A DNA stretch of 64,000 bases from Prochlorococcus sp. AG-347-K18 (lineage in GTDB: Bacteria > Cyanobacteriota > Cyanobacteriia > PCC-6307 > Cyanobiaceae). Below, one piece after another: positions 459-64,000 of the stretch. The first letter of the stretch is position 1. Every line of letters begins with the position of its first letter. Below the pieces are notes generated by a model. The model did not search any database and was not told the DNA's origin. It saw nothing but the letters and a program-made list of their open reading frames with translations. The position numbers and the translations under genes were made by a program. Location of the stretch: assembly GCA_003281365.1 (NCBI GenBank), contig QCCF01000002.1, forward strand, positions 186,001 to 250,000. The letters are read 5' to 3'.

Positions 459-9829
<9,371 letters not shown>

Positions 9830-52710: not shown

Positions 52711-54279
52711 TCAGAATATCTTACCTAAAAAATATTCTCCTAAAAAATTATCTCTAATATCAAAACATGTAACTAATAAATCAGCCTTTTCGGTGATTTT
52801 GAAAAAAAGTTTTAAGTTATCTTCTCCAAGATTAGATTTATTTTTTAGTTCGATTCTGAGTGGTTTTTTATCCCATATTATAATTTTTTCTTCACTTTGT
52901 ACCTCTGATAATTTTGGTAATCCGTTTTCAAAAATTACATCATATTCTCTTTCATGTTTTGTTTCTCCGATGATTATTTCAAATATTTTCTGATTATTAT
53001 CACTGGCTTGAAGAACCAGTTTAAATGGGGTTTCAGTTGGCCATGTTTGACCTTTGCAGAAAATAGGATGCCAGAAATGTTTTTGTTCTCTTTTATTTAA
53101 TAATCTTATGGATAAACCTTTTTTTAATATGTCTTTAATTTTGACACCCGGGGTCATTGCCAAAGCTCCAAGAGCTATCGATTCAACAGGAGGTGGTGAC
53201 TTTATCTCAATATTTGGAATCTTTTTTGTTATCCATTCGTTGATTAATGGTATTTGAGTACCCCCTCCAACGAGAATGATTGTATTTAAGTCATCTAATG
53301 TGCAAAATTTGCCTCTTGCTTCATTTAATAAATCTTTTAGTAAAGAGTTAAGGTGATTAAGGAGATTATTCTTAATAATAATTTGTTCAAATATTTCTTT
53401 ACTTAAGTAAAAATCTTTTTCTTGATATTCATCTATATTTAATTTTAATGGATATTTATCTTCATATGATATTTCAGATGAGCTGAGTTTACATTTTATT
53501 TTTTCTGCCCTTGAGAGATTTATTGAATATTTATTATCAGCAATAAAATTATCAACAATCCATTGATCAATATCTTTACCTCCAATTTTTGAGCCTACTT
53601 TGCTTATTATTTCAGCACACCTTATTTTTTGTTTTGAAATTGAACTTACATCATTCCCATTGAATTTTAATAATTCGGCTATAGGTCCTGATTTACCTTC
53701 ACCTCCCTCTATTTTCACTATATTCAGATCTATTGTGCTACCTCCAATATCTAAGGTCATAATTTTTGATCCAAATGGTACATCAACTCCTAAACTTGCC
53801 GCAGTAGGTTCATCAACTAGTGCTATTTCCTTTACAGAGAATTCCTCGCATAGGTTAACCAACCATTCTCTGTAACCTTTATAAGTATCAATAGGAGCAG
53901 TTAAAACAAGTCTCTTAATTTCATACTTTTGGGAAATTTTAACCCATAAAAATTTTAAAAATTTTTCGCCACATTCAGCAGGTTTTAAAATATTTTTTTG
54001 ATTAATTTTTTCAATAGGATTGCCAATTAATCTTTTAAAATTCGAATGAAAAAATAAATCAGAATTTGAGCTTTCCCTCATTTTTAGAGCACTCATACCA
54101 ATTTTCAAGTTTTTTGAAGATTCTTCAAACCAAACCGCTGTTGGTATAACTCCTGGTGATGATGTAATATTTGGTATTTCAACTAAAACAGGATTGTTAT
54201 CCTTTTGATTTTGAAAAGCCACCACAGTGTTTGTATTTCCTAAATCAATAGCAAGCGTTCCTGTTAAATTTTCTTTCAT
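52711..54279 (-). CDS. Hsp70-like ATPase (divergent DnaK family)
   Basis: Encodes about 522 residues from ATG 54279; a TTG seven codons upstream is less likely. The actin-like ATPase core is intact: AIDLGNTNTVVAF, VDEPTAASLG, TLDIGGSTIDL and ILVGGGTQIPLI. After the ATPase part (about 375 residues) only a short substrate-binding region remains and the helical lid is missing, so it is shorter than canonical DnaK (about 635). It may act with specialised J proteins, such as the membrane J protein at 15210, but no link is shown. Confidence 0.9.
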   Translation of the reverse strand: MKENLTGTLAIDLGNTNTVVAFQNQKDNNPVLVEIPNITSSPGVIPTAVWFEESSKNLKIGMSALKMRESSNSDLFFHSNFKRLIGNPIEKINQKNILKPAECGEKFLKFLWVKISQKYEIKRLVLTAPIDTYKGYREWLVNLCEEFSVKEIALVDEPTAASLGVDVPFGSKIMTLDIGGSTIDLNIVKIEGGEGKSGPIAELLKFNGNDVSSISKQKIRCAEIISKVGSKIGGKDIDQWIVDNFIADNKYSINLSRAEKIKCKLSSSEISYEDKYPLKLNIDEYQEKDFYLSKEIFEQIIIKNNLLNHLNSLLKDLLNEARGKFCTLDDLNTIILVGGGTQIPLINEWITKKIPNIEIKSPPPVESIALGALAMTPGVKIKDILKKGLSIRLLNKREQKHFWHPIFCKGQTWPTETPFKLVLQASDNNQKIFEIIIGETKHEREYDVIFENGLPKLSEVQSEEKIIIWDKKPLRIELKNKSNLGEDNLKLFFKITEKADLLVTCFDIRDNFLGEYFLGKIF

Positions 54280-54282
54280 ATA

Positions 54283-54299
54283 TGATTCATTATGAATCA
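54283..54299. promoter_or_regulatory. Operator-like palindrome upstream of the Hsp70-like gene
   Basis: TGATTCA and TGAATCA flank TTA in a perfect 7-3-7 inverted repeat directly before the Hsp70-like ATG (54279) and about 80 bases from the divergent rpoZ start. Its symmetry resembles dimeric regulator sites; the cognate protein is not identifiable. Confidence 0.4.
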
Positions 54300-54379
54300 A
54301 ATTAAGTGCTTTTTGTAATTTATGTTTTGAATCGGGCCAAAAAATTGTAAAATATACCTAATAGTGAAAACTTTTTTTA

Positions 54380-54616
54380 ATGAACATATCGAACAATGCA
54401 AATATCGACTCTAATGATCTTGCAAAAAGAGGTGAGAGCTTAATTAGAAAATCAACTAATAGATATCTAACTACAGTGAGAATTGCTTTTAGAGCTAAAC
54501 AAAGGCGTTTCGATGATTTTGATGGATTATTGGAGGAATCAACAATTAAACCTGTACAAAGATCAATTATTGAACTTAGCGATGAACAGGATCAACCAGA
54601 TTTACTTCCTGGTTAA
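54380..54616 (+). CDS. rpoZ: RNA polymerase omega subunit
   Basis: Encodes 78 residues. The N-terminal half aligns with omega (a Ser-rich start, then [30 protein letters not shown]), with a C-terminal tail [19 protein letters not shown] characteristic of cyanobacteria. Omega helps assemble beta' into the polymerase. The DUF1818 gene follows after 2 bases and is probably translated from the same message. Confidence 0.92.
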
Positions 54617-54618
54617 TT

Positions 54619-54990
54619 TTGGGAAAAAACCAAGGAAGATGGAAATTACTTAAGGATTTTAAAAAGGGCAAATTTTGCTTTTTAATTGGCGTTGATAATT
54701 GGTCAATTGAGTTACAAAAAAGTGAATTTGACTCACTTTTTCTTTTACTTCTAAGAATTAATAAACAACTACTAAGTATCAAGAATGAATTGATGGATGA
54801 GGAGTCTATTTCTTTAGAATTAGAACAGTTACCTTGGTATATTGAATTAGAAGGAACAAGGAATGAATGGAGCTTAAGGTTTGTTTTTGAGAGTCAAGAT
54901 CAAACTAGATCTTTCGAAATGTATTGGCCTATACCAATTGCGCAAAATTTATTTTATGAAATAAAAAAGATGTGGGAATCAATGGATTAA
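54619..54990 (+). CDS. DUF1818 protein
   Basis: Encodes 123 residues from TTG 54619, with no ATG nearby. The sequence (GRWKLLKDFKKGKFCFLIGVDNWSIEL, PWYIELEGTRNEWSLRFVFES, the C-terminal EMYWPIP) matches the cyanobacterial DUF1818 family. It overlaps nothing and is 2 bases after rpoZ, so it is translationally linked. Its function is unknown to me; association with rpoZ is commonly seen in cyanobacteria. Confidence 0.87.
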   Translation: MGKNQGRWKLLKDFKKGKFCFLIGVDNWSIELQKSEFDSLFLLLLRINKQLLSIKNELMDEESISLELEQLPWYIELEGTRNEWSLRFVFESQDQTRSFEMYWPIPIAQNLFYEIKKMWESMD

Positions 54991-55302
54991 AAGATAAATA
55001 AAATTGGAAATTTTGGAAAAAATTTCCCCGTGCTTAAAAATATTTTTCACAACTTTTCCACAACTATTTCAAATAAATCATCTAGTAATCTAATGTATGT
55101 GGAAAACTTACAAGTTTATATAATTCTTTATATTCCAACAAGAATAATTTCTTAAAAATTATTTTCTATGATTTCCCTTGTGATGACTTTATTCTCATTA
55201 TTCTATTGCTTGAGACTGTTTCTTATTAATACATGTTGACGATTTTGTAATTTTGAAGAAAACTGGATCTTGTAGCTTTAAATTCCGACAATTTTTTTGA
55301 AA
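54991..55302. other. Gene-free region with a cluster of DnaA-box-like words
   Basis: No gene is visible in this 312-base stretch. It holds TTTTCCACA at 55054-55062, the same word inverted (TGTGGAAAA) at 55098-55106, and a one-mismatch copy TTTTTCACA at 55043-55051, all within 64 bases. This word is the cyanobacterial DnaA-box form. The surroundings are AT-rich. No dnaA or dnaN is nearby, so it is not obviously the chromosomal origin. Confidence 0.45.
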
Positions 55303-55554
55303 ATGCAAAATTTAAATTTTGATGTAAACCCAATAATTTCAAACCAGAAAGACGATGTAATAAGTTTCAAATGTGAACTTCAAGAAAATCTTCAGAAGGC
55401 TATGAAACAATTTGTTGAGGAGCATCCTAACTGGGATCAGTACCGGATTCTACAAGCTGCTATTGCAGGATTTTTACTACAAAAAGGATTTCAAAATAGG
55501 GATCTTACAAGACTCTATATTGGAAATATGTTATCAATCAATTTTGAGGAATAA
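55303..55554 (+). CDS. DUF2811 protein
   Basis: Encodes 83 residues from ATG 55303 (an in-frame TTG at 55297 is less likely). The core ISFKCELQENLQKAMKQFVEEHPNWDQYRILQAAIAGFLLQKG matches the small DUF2811 family, which is largely helical. Known members occur in cyanobacteria; no function is established to my knowledge. It converges on the EVE gene with 7 bases between the stop codons. Confidence 0.85.
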   Translation: MQNLNFDVNPIISNQKDDVISFKCELQENLQKAMKQFVEEHPNWDQYRILQAAIAGFLLQKGFQNRDLTRLYIGNMLSINFEE

Positions 55555-55561
55555 AAATTTT

Positions 55562-56020
55562 TTATAATTTTTCTAGTATTATTTTTGCGATATCTTTTTG
55601 GACGGGCAAGATTGATAATCTATTTCCTTTCTTTACAACTAATAACTCATCTTCACTAAACAAAATTTTTAATTCAGGTAAACTTAGAATTTTGTTTGAT
55701 TTAGATATGAATTTTACTTTTACGCAATCCCATTTCGGATTTTCTGGTTTCGATTTTGGATCGAAATATTTAGAATCCTTATCAAATTGAGTAGGATCAA
55801 CAATATTTAGATCTATTACTTCCATAAGACCAACAATCCCTGGGGGTTTGCAGTTTGAATGATAGAAAAATACCTTATCTCTTTTGTTCATTTTTCTCAT
55901 AAAATTCCTAGCTTGATAATTTCTTATACCATCCCATAAAGTTTCACTTTCATTTTTTAAAGTATCTATGCTGTAAGCATCAGGTTCACTTTTCATTAGC
56001 CAGTAGTTAATTTCAGTCAT
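55562..56020 (-). CDS. EVE-domain protein
   Basis: Encodes 152 residues covering a whole EVE (formerly DUF55) domain: YWLMKSEPDAYSIDTL at the start, LWDGIRNYQARNFMR, KVFFYHSN and PPGIVGLMEV. EVE domains are PUA-like and bind modified bases in nucleic acids; a substrate cannot be inferred here. The 5' end and upstream region of this gene occur twice more in the window (58606 and 62383). Its leader contains a tandem 9-base repeat at 56047-56066. Confidence 0.92.
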   Translation of the reverse strand: MTEINYWLMKSEPDAYSIDTLKNESETLWDGIRNYQARNFMRKMNKRDKVFFYHSNCKPPGIVGLMEVIDLNIVDPTQFDKDSKYFDPKSKPENPKWDCVKVKFISKSNKILSLPELKILFSEDELLVVKKGNRLSILPVQKDIAKIILEKL

Positions 56021-56149
56021 ATCAATAATTTAGAAGAAAATTACAATGTGTGAACGGTGTGTGAACAGAATATTAAAAACGTTCAAATCTAGGTTAATTA
56101 TCCATCAAATTATCTATTTAGGAAAGTGATGGTTGGTAGGGAGTAATTA
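55986..56149 (-). repeat. Copy A of a three-copy module: EVE 5' end plus upstream region
   Basis: The functional-looking copy. It includes the first 12 codons of the EVE gene, about 64 variable leader bases and the conserved block 56098-56149 (TTATCCATCAAA, then TTTAGGAAAGTGATGG and a G-rich end). Read toward the gene, the conserved block gives a -10-like GATAAT about 75 bases before the ATG. An 18-base identity to copy C covers TCACTTTTCATTAGCCAG. Confidence 0.75.
56047..56066. promoter_or_regulatory. Tandem 9-base repeat with an 11-base period
   Basis: TGTGTGAAC occurs at 56047-56055 and 56058-56066, exactly one helical turn apart, in the leader of the EVE gene and upstream of the divergent GTPase operon. 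Direct repeats at 11-base spacing are typical of OmpR/PhoB-class regulator sites. Copies B and C of the module lack it. Confidence 0.4.
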
Positions 56150-56211
56150 ATTCTCTAAATATTATTGTTTTATCACTTAAATCACAAAATAAATATTTAA
56201 AATCGAAAACA

Positions 56212-56251
56212 AAAATGATTTTCATTTTCATATTGGTGTAAATTTTATACA
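56212..56251 (+). promoter_or_regulatory. Zur/Fur-like operator overlapping the predicted promoter of the GTPase operon
   Basis: AAAATGA (56212-56218) and TCATTTT (56222-56228) form a perfect 7-3-7 inverted repeat resembling Fur-family boxes. A -10-like TATACA lies at 56246-56251, with a 17-base spacer that would put the -35 inside the right arm, so binding would block transcription. The downstream gene encodes a COG0523-type metal GTPase, commonly Zur-controlled. Confidence 0.55.
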
Positions 56252-56267
56252 TTAGGTAGTATTTTTT

Positions 56268-57050
56268 ATGAGTCAAGTCTGTTTAATATCAGGTTCGCCA
56301 GGATGCGGTAAGACAAATTGGATACTAAATACTTTTAAGAATTATTCTGGCAATTGTGGTTACTTACGTCTTGGAGGATATTCCGAAATTAATTTAGAGC
56401 AAGCTATAAATTCAAAAATTGATTTTGCTTTTTTGAAAGATCAAATTCCTAACTTATTAGACTTATCTATTTCAAACTCAATATCAGAGAAAGATAAAGA
56501 AAACATTTTAATTATTATTGAATTTCCACAATTTTTTACACCTAAATCTCAGGGTATTAATGGAGTTGATCTGAGAATTATTAATGTACTTGAAAAATAT
56601 AATCTCCAGCCAAATAGATATCTTCATTTTGGTAGAGATCCAGAATTATCAATTAAAGATACTTTAGATTTTAGAGAAATTGAATCAATAAGCCTTGATC
56701 TTCAAAAGCATATTTGGGATCCTGCAAGCTTGAATACTTTTTGGTTTGAATTAGTTAATGGTGCTTATGGGGATGTATATAGAGCAAAAGCATTAATGAA
56801 CTTACCTGATGGACGTTACATCTTGTTTAATTGGATAGTCAGTCAGCAAGGATCTCAATATCAAACATTAAACCAAGTTGCCCCTCTTAATGGAAGACCA
56901 GAAAGATGTTCTGAAATTGTTATACAAGGGAAAAATTTAAACTTCGAGTCAATAAAAGCAACGATTCATAATTGCCTTCTTAATGATGCTGTACTAGATC
57001 ATCATCAAACTTCACTTAGAAATTCACAATTACAAACTGCTCGCCGTTAA
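56268..57050 (+). CDS. COG0523/CobW-like GTPase, shortened
   Basis: Encodes 260 residues. Walker A GSPGCGKT is at residues 9-16. A C-terminal CobW_C-like domain (about residues 165-245) is recognisable in FWFELVNGAYGDVYRAKALMNLPDGRYILFNW. The EFPQFFTP stretch fits the family's E-S-x-G-x-x-P-like switch. The CxCC metal-binding motif and a clear NKxD are missing, and it is shorter than the usual 300-400 residues. COG0523 proteins are thought to deliver zinc or other metals to client enzymes. It heads a tight operon with two phosphoesterases. Confidence 0.8.
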   Translation: MSQVCLISGSPGCGKTNWILNTFKNYSGNCGYLRLGGYSEINLEQAINSKIDFAFLKDQIPNLLDLSISNSISEKDKENILIIIEFPQFFTPKSQGINGVDLRIINVLEKYNLQPNRYLHFGRDPELSIKDTLDFREIESISLDLQKHIWDPASLNTFWFELVNGAYGDVYRAKALMNLPDGRYILFNWIVSQQGSQYQTLNQVAPLNGRPERCSEIVIQGKNLNFESIKATIHNCLLNDAVLDHHQTSLRNSQLQTARR

Positions 57051-57057
57051 CTTAAAA

Positions 57058-57873
57058 ATGAATCAAGCTGTCATCTCATGTTTACATGCAAATCTACCTG
57101 CAGTAGAGGCTGTCTTAAAAGATATTGAACTTCAAGGAATTACAAATATTACCTGTCTTGGAGATCTAGTGGGTTATGGTCCTCAACCTAATGAGGTTAT
57201 TGAGTTAATAAGAGATAAAGAAATTCCTACTTGTCAGGGATGTTGGGACGAAGACGTTGTTGATGGATTAGATGCTTGCGATTGTAGTTATCCTTCTCAG
57301 CTTGCTGAAAAAAGAGGTCATTTTGCTCATAAATGGACTACAGATAAATTAACTACAGAAAATAAGGATTATCTAGCTAATCTACCCTACTCAATACGTA
57401 AAGATAAGTGTCTTTTTGTTCATGGTAGTCCTAATAGTCAACATGAATATCTTCTACCCGATATGGATGCATTCGCAGCTCTTGAGAGAGTTGAAAATGC
57501 CAGAGCAGAGATTCTTTTTTGTGGTCATACTCACCAACCTTATATTCGCGAATTAGCAGATGGTTTAATTGCTGTAAAGATCAAAAATGCTGTTCCCAAA
57601 GATACTCAAGAAAAAGAAATTCAATTGCCTATGCGAAGAATAGTAAATGCAGGTTCAGTTGGAGAGCCAAGACATGGAGGAACTAAAGCTACTTATGTTG
57701 TTCATAACGATGTCACTAATGAAGTAAAAATTAGAGAAGTGGAATATGATATTGAACTTACTTGTAAAGCAATAATAGATGCCGGTCTTCCTCCGATTTT
57801 TGCATGGCGTTTAAAAAATGGATTCGAATTTGCAGAACAAGCTGAAGATGCATCTCATGTTTGTGAAAGATGA
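57058..57873 (+). CDS. Calcineurin-like metallophosphoesterase with altered metal motifs
   Basis: Encodes 271 residues. Family blocks are present: LHAN at the start, GDLVGYGPQPNEV (GD near 36), HGSP (near 122), GHTH (near 155) and a C-terminal NAGSVGEPRHG. However, the first motif reads SCLHAN rather than SDIHAN (Asp to Cys), and the GNHD motif reads GCWD. Cysteines cluster at PTCQGCWD and LDACDCSY (about residues 58-77). It begins 7 bases after the GTPase gene and overlaps the next gene by four. Substrate and activity are unknown. Confidence 0.88.
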   Translation: MNQAVISCLHANLPAVEAVLKDIELQGITNITCLGDLVGYGPQPNEVIELIRDKEIPTCQGCWDEDVVDGLDACDCSYPSQLAEKRGHFAHKWTTDKLTTENKDYLANLPYSIRKDKCLFVHGSPNSQHEYLLPDMDAFAALERVENARAEILFCGHTHQPYIRELADGLIAVKIKNAVPKDTQEKEIQLPMRRIVNAGSVGEPRHGGTKATYVVHNDVTNEVKIREVEYDIELTCKAIIDAGLPPIFAWRLKNGFEFAEQAEDASHVCER

Positions 57874-58589
57874 TAGAACGCTGGGCACTCGTAAGTGGTC
57901 TTAAAGGGGATCTAGATACTTATGAACTTATTCAAAAAGACTTAAAAAAAACTCCTGGTAATATAACTCTTTTTGTTTTGGGGGATATGATAGGTCCTGA
58001 AAAAAACTGTAATAGGCTTCTCCATAGGTTAATTAATCCAAAAAGTAATGATTTACAACCATGGTGCATATATGGTTGGTGGGAAGAACAAATCCTCTTG
58101 GAAAGTGGTTACCGTGGTGATCAAAGAGCTGAAGCTTTGAGAATAAATAAGGGTGAAGAAGTAGTTAATTCTCTTACGAATGCTGTAGACAAATCATTTC
58201 TTGATTGGATAGCAGCACTTCAATTTGGATTTGTTGAACTTGATTGTGGTTTGATTCACGGAAGCTCAAAAGATGTTGGCGAAAATTTAACACTAGATAC
58301 GCCGCCACTGACACTCCTTGATAGACTTACACGTCTTCAGGTAAACAGATTATTTACTGCAAGAAGTAAACAACAGTTTCACTTGGAATTGACAGAGGGG
58401 ATTGTTAATTCTGAAGTAGAAGATTTAAATGGAAATCGTAAGAAAGAGCAGAAAGTTCCTCAAAAAGCTGTTATTGGTATTGGGGCAGGAAAAAATTATA
58501 CTCTTTATGATGTCGGGACTGATAATACTCAATTCGTACAAGCAGGATATAAAACAGAAAAAAAAATTAAGGGATTTGGAAGGCTTTAG
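57870..58589 (+). CDS. Degenerate metallophosphoesterase-like protein
   Basis: Encodes 239 residues. The fold is recognisable from SGLKGDLDTYELI (in place of SDIHGN), LGDMIGPE, YGWWEEQ (in place of GNHD) and IHGSSKD. The GHTH motif is absent; the corresponding region reads FTARSKQQFHLEL. With several metal ligands lost it is probably a noncatalytic partner of the preceding phosphoesterase, with which it overlaps by four bases. It ends the operon. Its last bases overlap the 17-codon remnant of module copy B on the other strand. Confidence 0.75.
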   Translation: MIERWALVSGLKGDLDTYELIQKDLKKTPGNITLFVLGDMIGPEKNCNRLLHRLINPKSNDLQPWCIYGWWEEQILLESGYRGDQRAEALRINKGEEVVNSLTNAVDKSFLDWIAALQFGFVELDCGLIHGSSKDVGENLTLDTPPLTLLDRLTRLQVNRLFTARSKQQFHLELTEGIVNSEVEDLNGNRKKEQKVPQKAVIGIGAGKNYTLYDVGTDNTQFVQAGYKTEKKIKGFGRL

Positions 58590-58605
58590 TTTTTAGCATC
58601 AAGTA

Positions 58606-58757
58606 CCCACTTCATTAGCCAAAAATTTTCTTCATTCATATCAAGGGATTTGAAGGAATTTATCTGCTAGAATTTTGCTAGAATCAGATTTTTTTTATAT
58701 TTTTATTATCCATCAAAGTCACAATTTAGGAAAGTAATGGGTGGCATGGGGGTGTAT
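58606..58757 (-). repeat. Copy B of the three-copy EVE-upstream module
   Basis: Same order and orientation as copy A: an EVE-like start, then 63 variable bases, then TTATCCATCAAAG and AATTTAGGAAAGTAATGGGTGG. The coding remnant runs from ATG 58639 to TAA 58586 and reads MNEENFWLMKWVLDAKN. After 10 shared codons it departs from EVE. It lies directly behind the phosphoesterase operon and opens the small-gene region. Confidence 0.75.
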
Positions 58758-58806
58758 AGGACCGTGCTGCATCGTATATATGATCTGATACATTTCTGTT
58801 AAAAGT

Positions 58807-58956
58807 TTACGGGTACAACCTTTCAATAGCTTCTTTCTGTTCTTGCTTTTTTATGTCTTCAGCATCTAAAACAGGGCACGAGTTTTGATTTAGTGATAAG
58901 AGGAAAGTGCTTTTTTTGAATAGTTTGAAAAGTGGTGTAAGTAATAAGTTTTTCAT
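58807..58956 (-). CDS. Small protein of unknown function
   Basis: A 49-codon ORF (MKNLLLTPLFKLFKKSTFLL, then LDAEDIKKQEQKEAIERLYP). The N-terminal half is basic and weakly hydrophobic, the C-terminal half a charged helix. Its ATG directly abuts the stop of the gene at 58957, which supports translation of both. I do not recognise it; similar tiny proteins are frequent in Prochlorococcus variable regions. Confidence 0.6.
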   Translation of the reverse strand: MKNLLLTPLFKLFKKSTFLLSLNQNSCPVLDAEDIKKQEQKEAIERLYP

Positions 58957-59142
58957 TTATTCCCAAGTTTTCATATCAGAGAAGTCGCTTGCTATTGCAT
59001 GAAGCATCCCTCCTACAAATGATCTAGGGCAACCAAGTTTGTTAACTAGAACTTCTGATTGTTTTTTGATATCTTCCCATGTAGGTCTGATATCCTCATT
59101 TATTTGTTTAAGGCTAGGTTTAAATTCTTCTGAATCATTCAT
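58957..59142 (-). CDS. Small conserved-looking protein of unknown function
   Basis: Encodes 61 residues from ATG 59142; a TTG ten codons upstream is possible. It is acidic and helical (SLKQINEDIRPTWEDIKKQSEVLVNKLG) and ends with CPRSFVGGMLHAIASDFSDMKTWE. There is no membrane segment. It is followed with no spacer by the 49-codon gene, so the two probably form a small operon. No family is recognised. Confidence 0.7.
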   Translation of the reverse strand: MNDSEEFKPSLKQINEDIRPTWEDIKKQSEVLVNKLGCPRSFVGGMLHAIASDFSDMKTWE

Positions 59143-59220
59143 ATTAAAAGGTATTAACTTATTAAAATTCAAATGATAGTAAAGAAAATCTCATTTATTT
59201 AAATAAATATTCAATAAAAA

Positions 59221-59376
59221 TTACAAAATAAATTCTTTAGAAATTATTCTAAGCTGATTTAAATTCAGATTATTTAAATAATTATTTGCAATCAATTTTT
59301 CTTCATTAATTTCGAGATCTTTAATCTCAGAAATAATACTATTAGATATTAAATCAATTAAATGTTCTTTATCCAT
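59221..59376 (-). CDS. Small acidic protein of unknown function
   Basis: A 51-codon ORF: MDKEHLIDLISNSIISEIKDLE and then NNYLNNLNLNQLRIISKEFIL. It is leucine/isoleucine- and asparagine-rich and looks helical. Codon use is AT-rich like its neighbours. It lies 78 bases upstream of the gene pair at 58807-59142 and could be in the same transcript. No family is recognised. Confidence 0.55.
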   Translation of the reverse strand: MDKEHLIDLISNSIISEIKDLEINEEKLIANNYLNNLNLNQLRIISKEFIL

Positions 59377-59522
59377 GACTTATATATAAACCCAAAACAA
59401 ACATTAATTATTTAAAGTCTTCAACTCAACATATAAGTAAAAATACTCAGATAAATATAAAACTCATAGGTTTGCTAAATCACTTTAGATGATTGGTATG
59501 GGGTGCACGCGAATTATCAGCT

Positions 59523-59541
59523 ACTCACACTTGAGTTTTTT
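59523..59541 (+). terminator. Short intrinsic-terminator-like hairpin
   Basis: ACTCA/TGAGT (5 bp) closes a CACT loop and is followed by five Ts. It lies about 35 bases before the gene at 59578. No plus-strand gene precedes it, so it may end a short RNA or act as a leader element; the stem is short. Confidence 0.35.
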
Positions 59542-59577
59542 ATGTAACATAATAAGTTTACATAAAGTAACAATTAA

Positions 59578-59772
59578 ATGAAAAGACTTTTTCCTTATAT
59601 AGCTTTTGCATGTTTAACTGGTTTTACGGCTACGACCGGTTTACCAGTTATAGCAGGCGGTTGTAGTAGCCACATGAACAAAAAAGCTGATATCAAATGT
59701 GCTGAAGATGATACTGAGTGTCAAATTGAAAAAGCTGAAAAGTTTGATTTAGAAGATTCTCTCAAGTCATAA
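59578..59772 (+). CDS. Small secreted cysteine-containing protein
   Basis: Encodes 64 residues. A basic MKRLFPYI start, a hydrophobic core (about residues 7-25) and a possible cleavage near VIAGG form a signal peptide. The mature part has Cys at GGCSS, IKCAE and TECQI and is otherwise polar and acidic. The GGCSS could also be read as a weak lipobox. I do not recognise the family. A 34-codon ORF follows after 4 bases. Confidence 0.7.
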   Translation: MKRLFPYIAFACLTGFTATTGLPVIAGGCSSHMNKKADIKCAEDDTECQIEKAEKFDLEDSLKS

Positions 59773-59776
59773 AATC

Positions 59777-59881
59777 ATGACTCAAATCGGTTTATTTATG
59801 AACTCTGCCCCAAGAGATTTGATTGAGTTCACATTCTTTTCGGCTGTTGGTTTTACTGCAGGATTGTTTGGTCTAATTTAG
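59777..59881 (+). CDS. Very small membrane protein
   Basis: A 34-codon ORF (MTQIGLFMNSAPRDLIEFTF then FSAVGFTAGLFGLI) with one hydrophobic C-terminal segment. It follows the secreted-protein gene by 4 bases in the same orientation. This supports a two-gene transcript, but at this length chance cannot be excluded. Confidence 0.5.
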   Translation: MTQIGLFMNSAPRDLIEFTFFSAVGFTAGLFGLI

Positions 59882-59999
59882 TTATAGAAAATTGACCCAT
59901 TCTTTTTTTCTCCTAACCTTTTCAAGTCTTTCTTTCTTTTATGTGATGGCTTGCTTATGGAGAGATTTAATTAATCAAAAGTAAAAAATATTTTTTAAA

Positions 60000-60143
60000 T
60001 TACCTTTTATAGATAAATCTTTGTATGTCTTCGAATAGATTAGATTTTGATTTAAAAAATCCATTACTTTTTAAATAAGATTTTCCTTTCTCTATATTTT
60101 CAATTCTTTTTTCATAAGAATTTTCATCTAAATTTTTTTGCAT
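60000..60143 (-). CDS. Small lysine-rich protein of unknown function
   Basis: A 47-codon ORF: MQKNLDENSYEKRIENIEKG then NGFFKSKSNLFEDIQRFIYKR. It is charged and helical. It stands alone on the minus strand with about 120 bases on either side. No family is recognised; the evidence is the uninterrupted frame, its ATG and protein-like composition. Confidence 0.5.
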   Translation of the reverse strand: MQKNLDENSYEKRIENIEKGKSYLKSNGFFKSKSNLFEDIQRFIYKR

Positions 60144-60278
60144 AAAAAAATAGTCGGACTCTTATTCTGAATAATGCTCACAAAAAAGCGGTTACCTTAA
60201 ATACAAAATTTAAATTCTTTTTTGAATTTCTTTTCATTCAAACTAAAGATCAAATAAAAAAGTTTCTTTCTTAAATTT

Positions 60279-60416
60279 CTAAGAATCTTTTGAGATCTTC
60301 TTCTTCATGTCCTCAATATTATTAATTAATCTGTCTAACCATTCTGTATTATCTTCTGGTTTTAAATATTTAATTTTTGGTTGATTAATTTCAAGAGTCT
60401 CAAAATCTCCACTCAT
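60279..60416 (-). CDS. Small protein of unknown function
   Basis: A 45-codon ORF beginning MSGDFETLEINQPKIKYLKP and continuing EDNTEWLDRLINNIEDMKKK. The second half looks like an amphipathic helix. It is 135 bases upstream of the 47-codon gene and co-directional with it. No family is recognised. Confidence 0.55.
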   Translation of the reverse strand: MSGDFETLEINQPKIKYLKPEDNTEWLDRLINNIEDMKKKISKDS

Positions 60417-60537
60417 AAATTCACCTTTGTATATTCGTTTAACTACCTCTTTGTTCTAATTGATTTGACTAAAACACTGCGTATCTAATGTGTGCGGTTT
60501 GAGGAACATTTAGGTACGGAAAGAGGTATGTTTTTTT

Positions 60538-60619
60538 AGCCATTTAAATCTATGGCTGACCTAAATTAGAAATATGGTTGTCATGAATCGGTTGCGTTGC
60601 TGCAACTGAAATCAACCAT
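60538..60619 (+). promoter_or_regulatory. Structured leader upstream of a small gene
   Basis: Two hairpins precede the gene at 60644: AGCCAT/ATGGCT (60538-60543 and 60552-60557), and a nested pair of ATGGTTG/CAACCAT (60574-60580 and 60613-60619) enclosing GTTGC/GCAAC (60591-60595 and 60602-60606). The nested structure ends 24 bases before the ATG. No terminator tail is present, so a translational or stability role is more likely. Confidence 0.45.
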
Positions 60620-60643
60620 GAACTTTAAATTGCATTTAATAAA

Positions 60644-60826
60644 ATGACTTACTACAGTTGCTTTGATCAAAAAGGAAACATAATTGCTCGCTGTCAGACT
60701 AAAGAAGATATAGATGTTCTTAAGAAAATGGGCAGACCAATAATGGAAATAAAAGAAATGAAAAAAGAGGAATCAGTTGTTTGTTCTTTAACTGGTAGTC
60801 CATCCGATTACAATGAAGATTATTAA
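60644..60826 (+). CDS. Small protein of unknown function
   Basis: Encodes 60 residues: MTYYSCFDQKGNIIARCQTKEDIDVLKKMGRPIMEIKEMK, a beta-beta-alpha-like start, then a polar tail with Cys47. It has no signal or membrane segment. It is preceded by a strong RNA structure and followed after 4 bases by a small membrane-protein ORF. No family is recognised, but the composition strongly suggests a real gene. Confidence 0.7.
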   Translation: MTYYSCFDQKGNIIARCQTKEDIDVLKKMGRPIMEIKEMKKEESVVCSLTGSPSDYNEDY

Positions 60827-60830
60827 AAGT

Positions 60831-60962
60831 ATGACTCAAAGATCACTTCAATTAAATCAACATGGAAGATCAGTAGTTCTTTTGTTGGTTGCATTGAATA
60901 GCATTTGTACTTTCTTTTTTACTTTTGAAAAAGCATTAATTGATCGCGAAAGAGCGAGATAA
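60831..60962 (+). CDS. Small single-span membrane protein
   Basis: A 43-codon ORF with MTQRSLQLNQHGRSVVLLLV, a hydrophobic helix (about residues 13-33) and a charged C terminus EKALIDRERAR. It begins 4 bases after the preceding stop. A bidirectional terminator follows 50 bases downstream, consistent with a two-gene unit from 60644. Confidence 0.6.
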   Translation: MTQRSLQLNQHGRSVVLLLVALNSICTFFFTFEKALIDRERAR

Positions 60963-61014
60963 AAATATTTAATTATTTGTGGATTAACAGTAAATAAATA
61001 AAATTTAAGACATA

Positions 61015-61042
61015 AAAAAAGACCCTTTTACAGGTCTTTTTT
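61015..61042. terminator. Bidirectional intrinsic terminator
   Basis: The stem AAAAAAGACC/GGTCTTTTTT (61015-61024 and 61033-61042) with an 8-base loop has T-runs in both directions. On the plus strand it ends the 60644-60962 unit; on the minus strand it could end an RNA coming from 61310 or from the membrane-protein genes at 61429-61973. Confidence 0.88.
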
Positions 61043-61117
61043 AAATGGTGACGACAGAAAGGAGATCTATTTAATAATCAGATTAAGAATTTTCTTAGAA
61101 ATTAGTTTTGAATGTAA

Positions 61118-61310
61118 AAGTGATTACTCACTTCTTCATGCTTTACAAACGACTTTATTTTTAAGATAGTTCAGAATTAATCACGAAAGATTAATTTCTG
61201 ATCACTTAACTTTCTTACCGTAAAGGTTAGGTAAGTTAATTTACCTTGGTGTTGCAGACCATGGATTAGTGAAGATCTAGTTGGTCAACCTTGGTCGAGT
61301 CGATCACCAG
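61118..61310 (-). ncRNA. Candidate structured noncoding RNA or structured 3' UTR
   Basis: Four stem-loops occur in 190 bases: AAGTGA/TCACTT (61118-61133); a 12-bp stem with one bulge (61171-61182 with 61189-61201, loop ACGAAA); AGGTAA/TTACCT (61229-61246); and a compound stem TTGGTG/CACCAG (61246-61251 with 61305-61310) enclosing GACCAtGG/CCtTGGTC (61257-61264 with 61289-61296). A minus-strand transcript would end at the terminator 61015-61042. The strand is inferred from that terminator and the upstream minus-strand genes; the other strand is possible. Confidence 0.5.
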
Positions 61311-61428
61311 AACTGTCGTAATTATAAATTAATCGGTCATAAATATTTTGCATGAATCCTTAAGAATGATTTAATCATGATTAATTAAATCTTTAATCCG
61401 CGGACCACATCATCTCTCAGTAAGCATT

Positions 61429-61785
61429 TTATTTGTTTGTTTTACAAAGAATATAAAGCCAACCAAAGAAAGTAGCAAAAGCAATTATTAAAGCAATATT
61501 GTTATTCAATGGACTTAAATATCTTTCTATTGAAAGTGGCACATGGAGAATAACAAAATACCAATATAGAGCAGATAGTAATCCAAACAATAAAGCTAGA
61601 AGAATATAAAAAGGCAGGATATAAAATCTTCTTTTTTTTATTCTTTCCTCTGTAATATTTTCGGCTAAACCAATTCTTGACCAATAACCTCCATTTAATT
61701 GAAGAAAAAACTTTAAAAATATTCCGTAAATATTTATAAAAAACCTAGATAAAGCAAATAACGGTGAAATTATAAATCTTTGCAT
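61429..61785 (-). CDS. Small multi-span membrane protein of unknown function
   Basis: Encodes 118 residues from ATG 61785; a TTG four codons upstream would reach 61797. Three hydrophobic stretches are evident (about residues 8-28, 55-80 and 95-113), with a basic loop EERIKKRR between the first two. I do not recognise the family. It follows the 57-codon membrane protein by 14 bases on the same strand. The two genes share the terminator-containing leader upstream. Confidence 0.7.
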   Translation of the reverse strand: MQRFIISPLFALSRFFINIYGIFLKFFLQLNGGYWSRIGLAENITEERIKKRRFYILPFYILLALLFGLLSALYWYFVILHVPLSIERYLSPLNNNIALIIAFATFFGWLYILCKTNK

Positions 61786-61799
61786 TACTGCTTTCAAAA

Positions 61800-61973
61800 T
61801 TAAATTTGTTCAGTTATGGAAATCTGGCTTATATTATTAACTTTTTTTTCTCTATATTTCGTTAGAAAAAATACCATTGAGCTAAAAACAACTAAAAATC
61901 CTATTAATGATATTCGATAGAAAAGGTCATCAGACATATCAAAAAAAGCTGATCTTTTAAATTTGTTTCTCAT
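61800..61973 (-). CDS. Small single-span membrane protein preceded by an attenuator-like leader
   Basis: A 57-codon ORF: MRNKFKRSAFFDMSDDLFYR, a hydrophobic helix (about residues 20-40), then a polar C-terminal tail. The ATG stands one base after the T-run of a strong minus-strand terminator, which leaves no room for a separate promoter or an unstructured ribosome site. An internal ATG at residue 12 (61940) is an alternative start. Family unknown. Confidence 0.6.
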   Translation of the reverse strand: MRNKFKRSAFFDMSDDLFYRISLIGFLVVFSSMVFFLTKYREKKVNNISQISITEQI

Positions 61974-61974
61974 C

Positions 61975-61999
61975 AAAAAAAAGAGGGTTTTATCCCTCT
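61975..61999 (-). terminator. Minus-strand intrinsic terminator touching a start codon
   Basis: The stem AGAGGG/CCCTCT (61994-61999 and 61982-61987 on the minus strand) with a 6-base loop is followed by seven Ts, then a single G and the ATG at 61973. The 5' arm contains the only Shine-Dalgarno-like GAGG nearby. Confidence 0.88.
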
Positions 62000-62160
62000 A
62001 AGTTTAGATCGACTGTCAATCAAGTTATTTTTACTTGTGATGAGTGTGTTTCTTAGGTATAAGTGGTCTAAGGACTTCTCCTTTTCGTAAGGACTTGAGC
62101 CTAGCGGTTTCAAGGTTAACCCCGCACTCCTACACACGAGTACAAAAACCTTTTTAATTA

Positions 62161-62232
62161 ATGCAGATTACTTCTAAGACACTTAGCTTGCTACTTAATG
62201 TAGTTTTTGTGCTTTGTGTCTTTGTCATTTGA
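62161..62232 (+). CDS. Possible 23-residue membrane peptide
   Basis: An ORF of 24 codons (MQITSKTLSLLLNVVFVLCV then FVI) encodes a single hydrophobic helix like the tiny subunits of photosynthetic complexes, though I cannot assign it to one. A plus-strand terminator follows 48 bases after the stop, so a short transcript is plausible. It may instead be part of a noncoding RNA. Confidence 0.35.
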   Translation: MQITSKTLSLLLNVVFVLCVFVI

Positions 62233-62280
62233 AGACTATTCATCAAAAGAGATTAATAGTTTCAGGTTTTTCTTACTTCG

Positions 62281-62308
62281 AACCGAACTCAATATCGGTT
62301 AGTTTTTT
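62281..62308 (+). terminator. Plus-strand intrinsic terminator
   Basis: AACCGA/TCGGTT (62281-62286 and 62295-62300), an 8-base loop, two bases and six Ts. It would end a plus-strand RNA from the 62040-62232 region. Confidence 0.75.
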
Positions 62309-62316
62309 AGTCTGTA

Positions 62317-62338
62317 AAAGTTTGAGTAAAGTTTGAGT
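62317..62338. repeat. Tandem 11-base direct repeat
   Basis: AAAGTTTGAGT occurs twice without a gap (62317-62327 and 62328-62338), just after the terminator and 45 bases before module copy C. It may be an 11-base-period protein site or slippage. Confidence 0.7.
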
Positions 62339-62382
62339 AAAAAATTACGATTCCCTGAAATCCCAGTAATAGCTAGACGCGC

Positions 62383-62536
62383 TCACTTTTCATTAGCCAG
62401 AAATTTTCTTCAGTCATATCATGAGATTTGGGAGATTTTATTGATCGAAATAGGTGCAATTCGACCCTTTTTGGTATAAATTTATTATCCATCAAAGTTC
62501 CTAATTAGGAAAGTGATGAGTGTTGTGGGGTAATTA
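62383..62536 (-). repeat. Copy C of the three-copy EVE-upstream module
   Basis: Shares TCACTTTTCATTAGCCAG and TCAGTCATATCA with copy A, then 64 variable bases, then TTATCCATCAAAG, AATTAGGAAAGTGATG and GGGGTAATTA. The coding remnant from ATG 62417 to TAG 62373 reads MTEENFWLMKSERV. Here the spacer in the conserved block makes a perfect 14-base palindrome TTCCTAATTAGGAA. Same orientation as A and B. Confidence 0.75.
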
Positions 62537-62551
62537 TGAAATTAATAGTCT

Positions 62552-62728
62552 TTAGTTATAATCCAAAATATGAGCTATTGAATTTTTGTCACTTACTGAA
62601 AGTTCTTTATCTTCAAATCTCCATTTATACCAATAAATGCATTCATATAGTTTTGGATTTTCTCCAGAAATCTTTTTTTTATTTTTTATCCAACTAGCAA
62701 GAGCGTAAGCTTCGTTATTATTTAACAT
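62552..62728 (-). CDS. Small aromatic-rich protein of unknown function
   Basis: A 58-codon ORF: MLNNNEAYALASWIKNKKKI, then NPKLYECIYWYKWRFEDKELSVSD and NSIAHILDYN. It is rich in Trp and Tyr and predicted helical, without a signal or membrane segment. It stands alone just beyond module copy C. I do not recognise the family. Confidence 0.6.
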   Translation of the reverse strand: MLNNNEAYALASWIKNKKKISGENPKLYECIYWYKWRFEDKELSVSDKNSIAHILDYN

Positions 62729-62813
62729 TTCTTTTTAATTTTATTTAAGCATGAGAAAATGTATTTACAAAATATAGATATATTTATTTTGATAATTTTC
62801 CTAAAATAAAGTA

Positions 62814-63404
62814 ATGAAGAATATCCCGCTTTTTGTATTTTTTTTATTCATCCTAAACGTGCCTGTAGGTTATGCCTTTTTGGGAAAAGTATCTAGTGAG
62901 CAATATTCTAAATGTAAAAAAAGAGCTCAAAATCAACTAAACGAATTTAGTGCGAAGCAAATTTTTCGAGATTGTATAAATTCTTATAAAGAATCAAATA
63001 AACAAATGAGCAGAGAAGAAAAGGTTCGAATTAAAGAATTAAAAAAATTAGAAAAGGCAAAAGAAAAATATTCTAAAATTTGCTTTGATAATTTATTTGA
63101 GTCCTTTAAAGACAGAATGGAAAATACTATTTATAATCATTCTTTTGGCGATGTCAATGAAATCTATTCTTTTATAGAGCAATTAAATATTAATAAACAA
63201 AGTAATGCTGATTTTGTATTAAGTAACCATCAAAGAAATTTAATAGATAATAATGTAAGGGTTGAATATAACGAAATTACAAAATTTGCAATAGGAAAAA
63301 ACATTTTTTACTCTATAAAATATTTTAGAGAAGAATTTTTAAAAGAATTTGATCAATGTATTCTTGATAAGTCTGAATCAAAATCTTTTTTGAAATTTTT
63401 CTAA
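62814..63404 (+). CDS. Secreted or lumenal protein of unknown function
   Basis: Encodes 196 residues. A signal peptide (MKNIPLFVFFLFILNVPVGYA, cleavage near residue 21) is followed by a highly charged, mostly helical mature part with scattered cysteines (KCKKRAQ, FRDCINS, ICFDNLF, DQCILDK) that could form disulfides. No catalytic motif is visible and I do not recognise the family. It converges on the TPR gene with a 4-base overlap. Confidence 0.75.
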   Translation: MKNIPLFVFFLFILNVPVGYAFLGKVSSEQYSKCKKRAQNQLNEFSAKQIFRDCINSYKESNKQMSREEKVRIKELKKLEKAKEKYSKICFDNLFESFKDRMENTIYNHSFGDVNEIYSFIEQLNINKQSNADFVLSNHQRNLIDNNVRVEYNEITKFAIGKNIFYSIKYFREEFLKEFDQCILDKSESKSFLKFF

Positions 63405-64000
63405 TTACAGAATTTATCTAATAATTGCAATGCATATTCTGAACTTAGTTGTGAAGCAATTTCCCAATCCTTACAATATCCTGATTTACTTGCTTTGAAC
63501 TTAGTTATCCCTATTTGTTCGTAAAGAAAAGAAGAGTTTGGTTCAGATTTTATGGCTTTATTAAAATATAAAATTGCTGCTTCATAATCATTATTTTTTT
63601 CTTTTGCTAAAGCCAATATCTTATATGAAGAGGCAGGAAATTCATCAGGATTTATTTCTATTGCCGCAATAAAATCTTTTGCGGCTCCAGTGTAATCTTT
63701 CATGAAAAATCTTGCTAAACCTCTTCTTTCTAAGGCAAGTGATTTCATGGAAGATTTGCTATTTGATTTAACAACAAAATTGAGATCATTAATTGCTTTT
63801 TTAAATTCTTTTAGAGCAACAAAAATAGTGCCTCTATATAAAAAAGCTTCTTTATAAACTGAATTAATCTCTAATGCTTTATTTAAGTCGTTTACTGCAC
63901 CCTCCAAGTCTCCCCTATCTTTTTTGATTGAAGCTTTTAATAAAAAATCTTCAGCCGTTTCTGCTTTAATGGAACTTATATTCAATAAATAATTTGAGCC
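63401..64000 (-). CDS. Tetratricopeptide-repeat protein, 5' end outside window
   Basis: The minus-strand frame is open to the window edge, so the gene is incomplete; a TTG at 63985 is an internal candidate start only. About four TPR units are visible, with the rhythm AVNDLNKALEINSVYKEAFLYRG / AINDLNFVV / AAKDFIAAIEINPDEFPAS / AILYFNKAIKSEPNSSFLYEQ, followed by a short C-terminal cap. The residues before AETAEDF may belong to a signal peptide. TPRs mediate protein-protein contacts; the partner is unknown. Confidence 0.88.
   Translation of the reverse strand, partial: GSNYLLNISSIKAETAEDFLLKASIKKDRGDLEGAVNDLNKALEINSVYKEAFLYRGTIFVALKEFKKAINDLNFVVKSNSKSSMKSLALERRGLARFFMKDYTGAAKDFIAAIEINPDEFPASSYKILALAKEKNNDYEAAILYFNKAIKSEPNSSFLYEQIGITKFKASKSGYCKDWEIASQLSSEYALQLLDKFCN

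Follow-up and report, generated by a model that had tools for sequence, protein, structure and literature searches.

Probable attachment-site junctions of integrative elements at the 5' end of the EVE gene in Prochlorococcus

Tycheposons are reportedly integrative elements which integrate at tRNA genes in Prochlorococcus, the commonest photosynthetic bacterium of the ocean. The routes by which this genus takes accessory genes into its streamlined genome are an open question, which is addressed here through the EVE-domain gene (EVE) of Prochlorococcus sp. AG-347-K18, the start of which belongs to a short module that is present three times in one stretch of 64,000 nucleotides (assembly GCA_003281365.1, contig QCCF01000002.1, positions 186,001 to 250,000 of the forward strand), called the window in what follows and used as the frame for all window coordinates. 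Three described systems bear on this locus. One paper (PMC10187409) mentions tycheposons and describes, in the islands of Prochlorococcus and Synechococcus, a diverged tyrosine recombinase which is missed by standard models and is located upstream of tRNA-Phe or tRNA-Cys. The dusA islands (PMC4482086) have a housekeeping gene as their target, insert at its 5' end, supply it with a new one and leave the original as the outer boundary of the island, with a semi-conserved direct repeat at both ends. The attP of Cluster K mycobacteriophages (PMC3203893) carries two pairs of 11-bp arm-type repeats around a common core, and these repeats vary between related integrases together with N-terminal residues.

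The modules in the window are very probably (with a probability of about 0.9) attachment-site junctions of integrative elements which insert site-specifically into the 5' end of EVE in Prochlorococcus. A preliminary description of the window had considered the module as a possible recombination site and as a point at which accessory DNA enters, and both suggestions are supported by an empty site, by a switch of sequence at the core of the module, by cores at the boundaries of elements, and by integrase genes which adjoin the outer core. A full-text search of the Prochlorococcus literature, judged by titles and abstract openings and with subscription papers outside its reach, returned no description of the EVE site.

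The module, its core and the DNA upstream of EVE

The three copies stand where the preliminary description had placed them, all on the minus strand, and each contains a short putative attachment core and a promoter-like block upstream of it:

55562..56020, minus strand: EVE-domain gene, the target (open reading frame; Pfam PF01878, E=4.9e-53)
55992..56002, minus strand: putative attachment core, copy A, at EVE, TGGCTAATGAA (exact match; the conservation step over 79 loci falls here)
58611..58621, minus strand: core, copy B, TGGCTAATGAA (exact match)
62389..62399, minus strand: core, copy C, TGGCTAATGAA (exact match)
56098..56127, minus strand: promoter-like block, copy A (sequence match)
58706..58735, minus strand: promoter-like block, copy B (sequence match)
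62485..62514, minus strand: promoter-like block, copy C, which would form part of the left end of another element, lying beyond C

The insertion core TGGCTAATGAA corresponds to EVE codons 7-10, WLMK, and occurs exactly three times in the window when both strands are counted, compared to 0.08 expected occurrences under a first-order Markov model; the combination of block and core is found three times, each time on the minus strand and never on the plus strand. No outer core of the element beyond C was found in the next 19.9 kb.

The comparison with relatives is based on 80 loci (L034-L113), the best 80 of at least 461 confirmed EVE relatives; these 80 comprise 77 from Prochlorococcus and 3 from Synechococcaceae. 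When the core is taken as 19 nt with up to 4 mismatches, and EVE's own core is included, 136 cores are found in the orientation of EVE versus 6 in the opposite one, and the corresponding counts for the block (up to 6 mismatches) are 100 and 1. For 79 of these loci, sequences were compared pairwise at fixed offsets. Between 160 and 21 bp upstream of the core, mean identity lies at 0.30-0.53; the two 10-bp bins nearest to the core, which hold the start codon and the variable first codons, have 0.77 and 0.63, the core itself has 0.99, and along 300 bp of the EVE body the values are mostly at least 0.9, with 0.73 in the lowest bin.

The likeness of the 130 bp upstream is uncorrelated with that of the EVE body over all pairs of the 79 loci (r=0.002), and the upstream DNA is unlike in 106 of the 112 closest EVE pairs. 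Examples are one pair of loci (L049 and L109) which have all upstream 8-mers in common and EVE bodies 85% identical, and another (L043 and L104) which have none in common and EVE bodies 99.3% identical. Because the upstream DNA is thus decoupled from the EVE body, exchange of DNA must be placed at or very near the core. Among gene families in the neighbourhood, the 13 commonest all lie downstream of EVE and are each present in 57-77 of the 80 loci. No upstream family is present in more than 33, many loci being cut on one side by contig ends.

An empty site is seen at two loci (L035 and L057), in which an upstream gene of family c31 runs directly into EVE, and in the occupied counterpart (L042) the same c31 gene runs into a displaced EVE start and then the core, after which two stacked elements extend over 6.4 kb from the outer core to the EVE core, followed by the EVE body. 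The two empty sites may either never have been filled or have been emptied.

The preliminary description had also claimed a constant spacing of the blocks, which did not hold. Measured from block start to core end, copy A spans 136 nt, B 125 and C 126, so that A is longer by 10-11 nt than the other two, and over the 80 loci the distance from block start to core start is 113-117 nt in 45 cases, 121-126 in 42 and 142 in 4; the layout of block and core is conserved and their spacing is variable. The interior between them, described as variable, does differ between copies, but it is not random, since an 11-bp direct repeat pair is present in A and B; no such pair was found in the interior of copy C, and one is present on the opposite side of core C. 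The expectation that related strains would carry the block beside EVE held in part: it is found at 46 of the 80 EVE genes, and 26 of the 33 measurable EVE genes which lack it have an alternative left end with a perfect 8/8 arm-repeat pair.

A search of 60 genomes, the source genome among them, for the block with up to 3 mismatches found it in 30, which all belong to this genus and have 1 to 6 sites each; the total is 70 sites versus 13 for a reversed control pattern. A promoter role for the block is plausible from its sequence and could hold alongside a role in the recombination site. The block also precedes a 392-residue gene which reads as desaturase-like by eye and has no core near it (L144:7081-7163, L146:6434 and, more weakly, L149:16687), and the elements may therefore have this type of promoter in common with their host; an assignment of the gene behind the block in L144 to minC was dropped, because the open reading frame reads by eye as a desaturase.

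Arm repeats and a probable diverged integrase

The interior repeats consist of short words in two copies 11 bp apart, among them TTCACAC, TTCTAGCA, ATACCAGCA, TTCACGAT, GACTAGCA, TCCACAC, TTACYCAAAC and TTCGAAC, and about ten such arm families were found. Upstream of the EVE core, 62 of the 80 loci have an 11-bp direct repeat pair in which at least 9 of 10 positions match, compared to 39 of 1600 random stretches; the remaining 18 loci have weaker pairs or none. Among the 67 pairs with at least 8 matching positions, 66 show a period of 11. The same families which stand beside the EVE core also follow displaced cores. Among 55 displaced cores, which were picked by block or start codon alone regardless of repeats, 40 have a left pair, 36 a right pair and 29 both (at least 7/8 matching), against backgrounds for left and right pairs of 19 and 31 in 2000 random stretches. 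In intervals between neighbouring cores, for which displaced sites were retained only where one side had repeats, the arms at the two ends match in 13 of 31 cases compared to a permuted mean of 6.6 (P=0.0035), and in 10 of 25 after the removal of duplicates (P=0.02). The smallest unit seen (L076:2201-2324) has 123 bp and is made up of a core, one shared repeat pair, a leader and an EVE start.

The element which reveals the likely integrase, that of locus L091, has 9668 bp and contains, in order, the outer core, right arms, a 528-residue protein, cargo, the small genes c37 and c33, left arms and the EVE core. The tail of the 528-residue protein is recombinase-like (YSMRSTF ... ARICGNS ... QTYERID). 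It has no match in PHROGs and a chance match alone in NCBIfam; a 475-residue relative (L229) passes the Pfam PF00589 cut-off with E=8.1e-9, and a profile comparison of the integrase with known recombinases gives E=5.2e-5 and a probability of 67%. Matches to the integrase are present in 53 of 266 genomes of the genus, many of them incomplete, and comprise 6 whole copies, 1 split copy and a remainder of fragments or distant matches.

All six whole copies begin 85-119 nt after a displaced core. Six integrase elements of 5635-12017 bp (L091, L205, L206, L207, L208 and L209) lie directly upstream of EVE and hold five of the whole integrases and the split copy, the sixth whole copy (L179) being on a contig too short to reach EVE. 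In each of the six the integrase sits inside the element at the outer end, away from EVE, and the arms at both ends belong to the same family, which is ATACCAGCA in four elements and TTATCCAAAC and GTCCACACC in the other two.

The arm repeats vary together with one part of the protein. In an alignment of 23 integrases extracted from 27 candidates, of which 18 have a clear repeat pair, the similarity of the arms correlates with the identity of the N-terminal 75 residues (r=0.66) far more than with that of the catalytic part (r=0.21). The partial correlation is 0.71 for the N-terminus (P=0.0002, n=18), or 0.65 for 16 non-redundant integrases, and -0.38 for the catalytic part given the N-terminus (n=18). 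Such a correlation would be expected if the N-terminal domain binds the arms. All 23 members have Tyr496 and Arg464, the extraction having required one of two motifs around these residues. The alignment was also inspected at columns 284, 300, 461 and 487 (L175-L180, L211-L235): Ser300 is present in 19 of 23 members and Arg284 appears nearby, while four distant members retain Arg300, two of which have Asn284, and these residues suggest a possible relocation of the catalytic Arg I to position 284.

Relatives of the integrase extend beyond the genus. In other genera of the family, 22 loci were inspected by eye together with their upstream DNA; an EVE-like start stands before the integrase in 8 and is lacking in 14, and in relatives without the EVE start (L218, L220-L236) an 11-bp repeat pair often precedes the integrase gene. 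No tRNA gene was found in the window or in 14 integrase-bearing loci, and neither tRNA-Phe nor tRNA-Cys in the 1.9-19.9 kb next to 15 further relatives of the family, which suggests that family members without an EVE start use other sites.

Several further genes near these elements were noted. At the EVE end of four of the six integrase elements (L091, at 9069-9678, L205, L206 and L207) stand c37 (about 106 residues) and c33 (about 80 residues, Cys-rich), both candidates for excision factors, and a fifth element (L209) has c37 only. An ordinary tyrosine integrase of 435 residues (L158:5234-6541; PHROG integrase, E=1.2e-34) occurs with a c33-like gene in another genome, about 3.3 kb from the displaced core of a GTPase cassette (described below); no attachment site was found for it. 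Thirty tyrosine recombinases, obtained by a Pfam search of 50 of the 80 locus genomes, were rejected as the integrase, because they have no tblastn match in the 80 EVE loci; a weak match lies about 13 kb upstream of EVE in genome G022 (L147, 27% identity), and others lie on a contig other than the EVE contig (L148) or about 40 kb from EVE (L154). Most of the thirty represent one conserved recombinase of about 389 residues (L126, L128-L143), about 87-98% identical between strains. Open reading frames of about 430 residues which adjoin EVE were likewise rejected, one being an oxidoreductase by Pfam and one porin-like by eye with no Pfam match.

Elements of the window, proposed mechanism and rival explanations

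Between the three cores the window contains two elements, whose parts are as follows:

56003..58610, no strand: element 1, an integrase-less cassette, core A to core B (delimited by the cores)
56268..58589, plus strand: cargo of element 1, namely a CobW_C-domain P-loop protein, a Metallophos_2 protein and a 239-residue protein without Pfam match (Pfam, open reading frames)
56044..56065, minus strand: left arm repeats of element 1, 11-bp pair, TTCACAC type (repeat scan)
58586..58639, minus strand: displaced EVE start, copy B, 17-codon open reading frame MNEENFWLMKWVLDAKN
58622..62388, no strand: element 2, decayed, with small genes, core B to core C (delimited by the cores; right arms and integrase relic at the C end)
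58663..58684, minus strand: left arm repeats of element 2, TTCTAGCA type (repeat scan)
62320..62339, minus strand: right arm repeats of element 2, TACTCAAAC type (repeat scan)
62353..62378, minus strand: conserved sequence at the right end, following core C, GTCTAGCTATTACTGGGATTTC...; many other displaced cores are followed by a similar sequence
62373..62417, minus strand: displaced EVE start, copy C, 14-codon open reading frame MTEENFWLMKSERV
62246..62314, minus strand: relic of the integrase C-terminus, residues 504-526 of 528, 73.9% identical, with a stop (tblastn, E=0.002)

No right arm repeats of element 1 were found at its B end. Element 1 is the GTPase cassette, the genes of which occur in 12 of the 80 loci. 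In 7 of these loci the cassette has a core on either side; it adjoins EVE in 6 and is displaced by another cassette in the seventh (L106). The integrase relic stands directly behind the right arms of element 2 and is the sole match to the integrase profile in its own genome (E=1.8e-4), no search for other integrases having been made there. In the set of 80 loci, 12 also have a relic of the integrase C-terminus, which follows a displaced core at a distance of 85-99 nt; several of these matches are weak (E from 2.6e-4 to 0.25). The relics suggest that integrase-less cassettes arose by internal deletion. Other cargo bounded by cores includes the alkaline phosphatase PhoX (L041), a cytosine methylase (L108) and a HupE/UreJ-family protein (L059), and one integrase element (L205) carries a type I restriction-modification system, HsdM, HsdS and HsdR.

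These observations can be assembled into the following mechanism. The attachment site of an element would consist of a core identical to the EVE codons for WLMK with an 11-bp repeat pair on each side, the repeats serving as arm-type sites of the integrase, which would bind them, bring the element core to the EVE core and exchange strands there. Integration would join the promoter block, leader, start codon and first codons of the element to the EVE body, and the previous EVE start would be pushed to the far end of the element and left there as a truncated start; the first codons and leader of EVE in the window would accordingly come from the last element inserted. EVE would stay expressed, because a leader, a start codon and probably also a promoter come with the element. 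As one element after another inserted at the EVE core, they would be stacked in one orientation, and many of them would have lost the integrase by internal deletion and persisted as core-bounded cassettes. Two of these remnants would lie in the window, the GTPase operon being contained in A-B and the small genes in B-C. The boundaries, the arms, the linkage to the integrase, the co-variation of arms and N-terminus, the empty site and the decoupling from the EVE body are observations; DNA binding, catalysis, excision, promoter activity and the vehicle of transfer we infer.

Several results weigh against this explanation. The step of identity partly reflects the difference between coding and non-coding DNA, and insertions and deletions depress the upstream values. 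The arms are mismatched in 18 of the 31 neighbouring-core intervals, from which it follows that cassettes have also recombined; element 2 itself bears different arm families at its two ends, and the window elements contain no more of the integrase than a relic. Pfam Phage_integrase matches the 528-residue protein weakly, under the cut-off (E=0.003), and in the alignment 19 of the 23 members have Ser where the canonical Arg I is expected, the HxxR motif being replaced by YxxR. In the three elements from other genera which include EVE (among eight regions that were followed further), the arms match in one and differ in two, intermediate sites not having been looked for. Finally, the integrase has no match in phage or plasmid records or in viral contigs, and the viral contigs contain no exact match for the core or for block plus core.

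Could the module be merely a copied promoter-leader or small RNA, the copies of which serve expression and not recombination? The block is indeed promoter-like and precedes the coreless desaturase-like gene, but such copying leaves unexplained why identity steps up at the core within the coding frame, why repeats lie beyond the displaced cores and why an integrase adjoins them, and it is contradicted by the empty site and by the decoupling of upstream DNA from the EVE body. The small-RNA version also has against it an Rfam search of 54000-64000, which found no RNA family at the modules and a single chance match elsewhere. This explanation must be regarded as highly improbable.

The other two alternatives accept recombination and differ from site-specific insertion of each element in how cassettes move. 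If homologous recombination between the repeats of about 150 bp shuffled the cassettes, with a site-specific step at the first insertion only, differing arms would be expected, as in the 18 intervals, and so would the 123-bp interval of L076, where right and left arms are one repeat pair, as unequal crossing-over predicts. It does not explain why new insertions at EVE have matching arms at both ends in 6 of 6 cases, nor why all six EVE-reaching integrase elements adjoin EVE, and we consider it unlikely. An integron-like use of the locus, in which integrase-less cassettes are still moved in trans by the integrase of another element and the array is a live store, would account for the varied array places of the core-bounded GTPase cassette (six beside EVE, one displaced) and for the occurrence of the same upstream module beside distant EVE alleles; the scarcity of the whole integrase (6 of 266 genomes, many incomplete, and one split copy) and the difference of arm families between elements make it doubtful. 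A broader conjecture, for which we hold tentative expectations at most, is that dead elements leave cassettes, each with a promoter-bearing attachment module, in such a live integron-like store, that visiting integrases of a rapidly diversifying family move them in trans, that the N-termini of this family and the arms co-evolve like lock and key, and that many element types can thus share one core without interference.

If the modules are attachment-site junctions, as we consider very probable, then insertion at EVE would be a route for accessory genes into streamlined Prochlorococcus genomes beside that of tRNA-linked elements, with an exact address, an integrase missed by standard models, and cargo of ecological and defence value. 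The arm repeats with their matching N-terminal domains would form a natural data set for the study of change in recombinase DNA specificity.

Comparison with described systems

By analogy, the dusA islands appear to be the closest precedent for the EVE elements: in both, the 5' end of the target gene is replaced by that of the element, the old 5' end stands at the outer boundary, and the two ends carry direct repeats. They differ in that the target is dusA in the one case and EVE in the other, where the integrase is diverged; in the position of the integrase, which adjoins the 5' end of dusA and lies at the end away from EVE; and in size, which is typically 30-60 kb for dusA islands and 5.6-12 kb for complete EVE elements. 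EVE elements, unlike dusA islands, also stack in tandem and are often integrase-less.

Tycheposons are similar in being integrative elements which occur in the islands of Prochlorococcus, carry variable cargo and have a tyrosine recombinase, as the EVE-type integrase probably is. They differ in that tRNA genes are described as their targets, no tRNA gene having been found in the EVE loci examined (the window and 14 integrase loci). The recombinase reported upstream of tRNA-Phe or tRNA-Cys resembles the EVE-type integrase, itself a probable diverged tyrosine recombinase, in belonging to picocyanobacteria and in being missed by standard models, but neither tRNA gene was found within reach of the EVE-type integrase; the two may be cousins or overlap. 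The Cluster K attP shares with the EVE cores the flanking pairs of 11-bp arms and the variation of these arms together with the integrase N-terminus, and differs from the EVE system, which has about ten arm families, a protein-gene target instead of a tRNA gene, and an integrase that has no match in phage records. EVE cassettes are like those of integrons in standing in tandem, in one orientation, bounded by recombination sites. What is new here is the EVE target, the diverged integrase and the tandem integrase-less cassettes; the general kind of element is known from the dusA islands.

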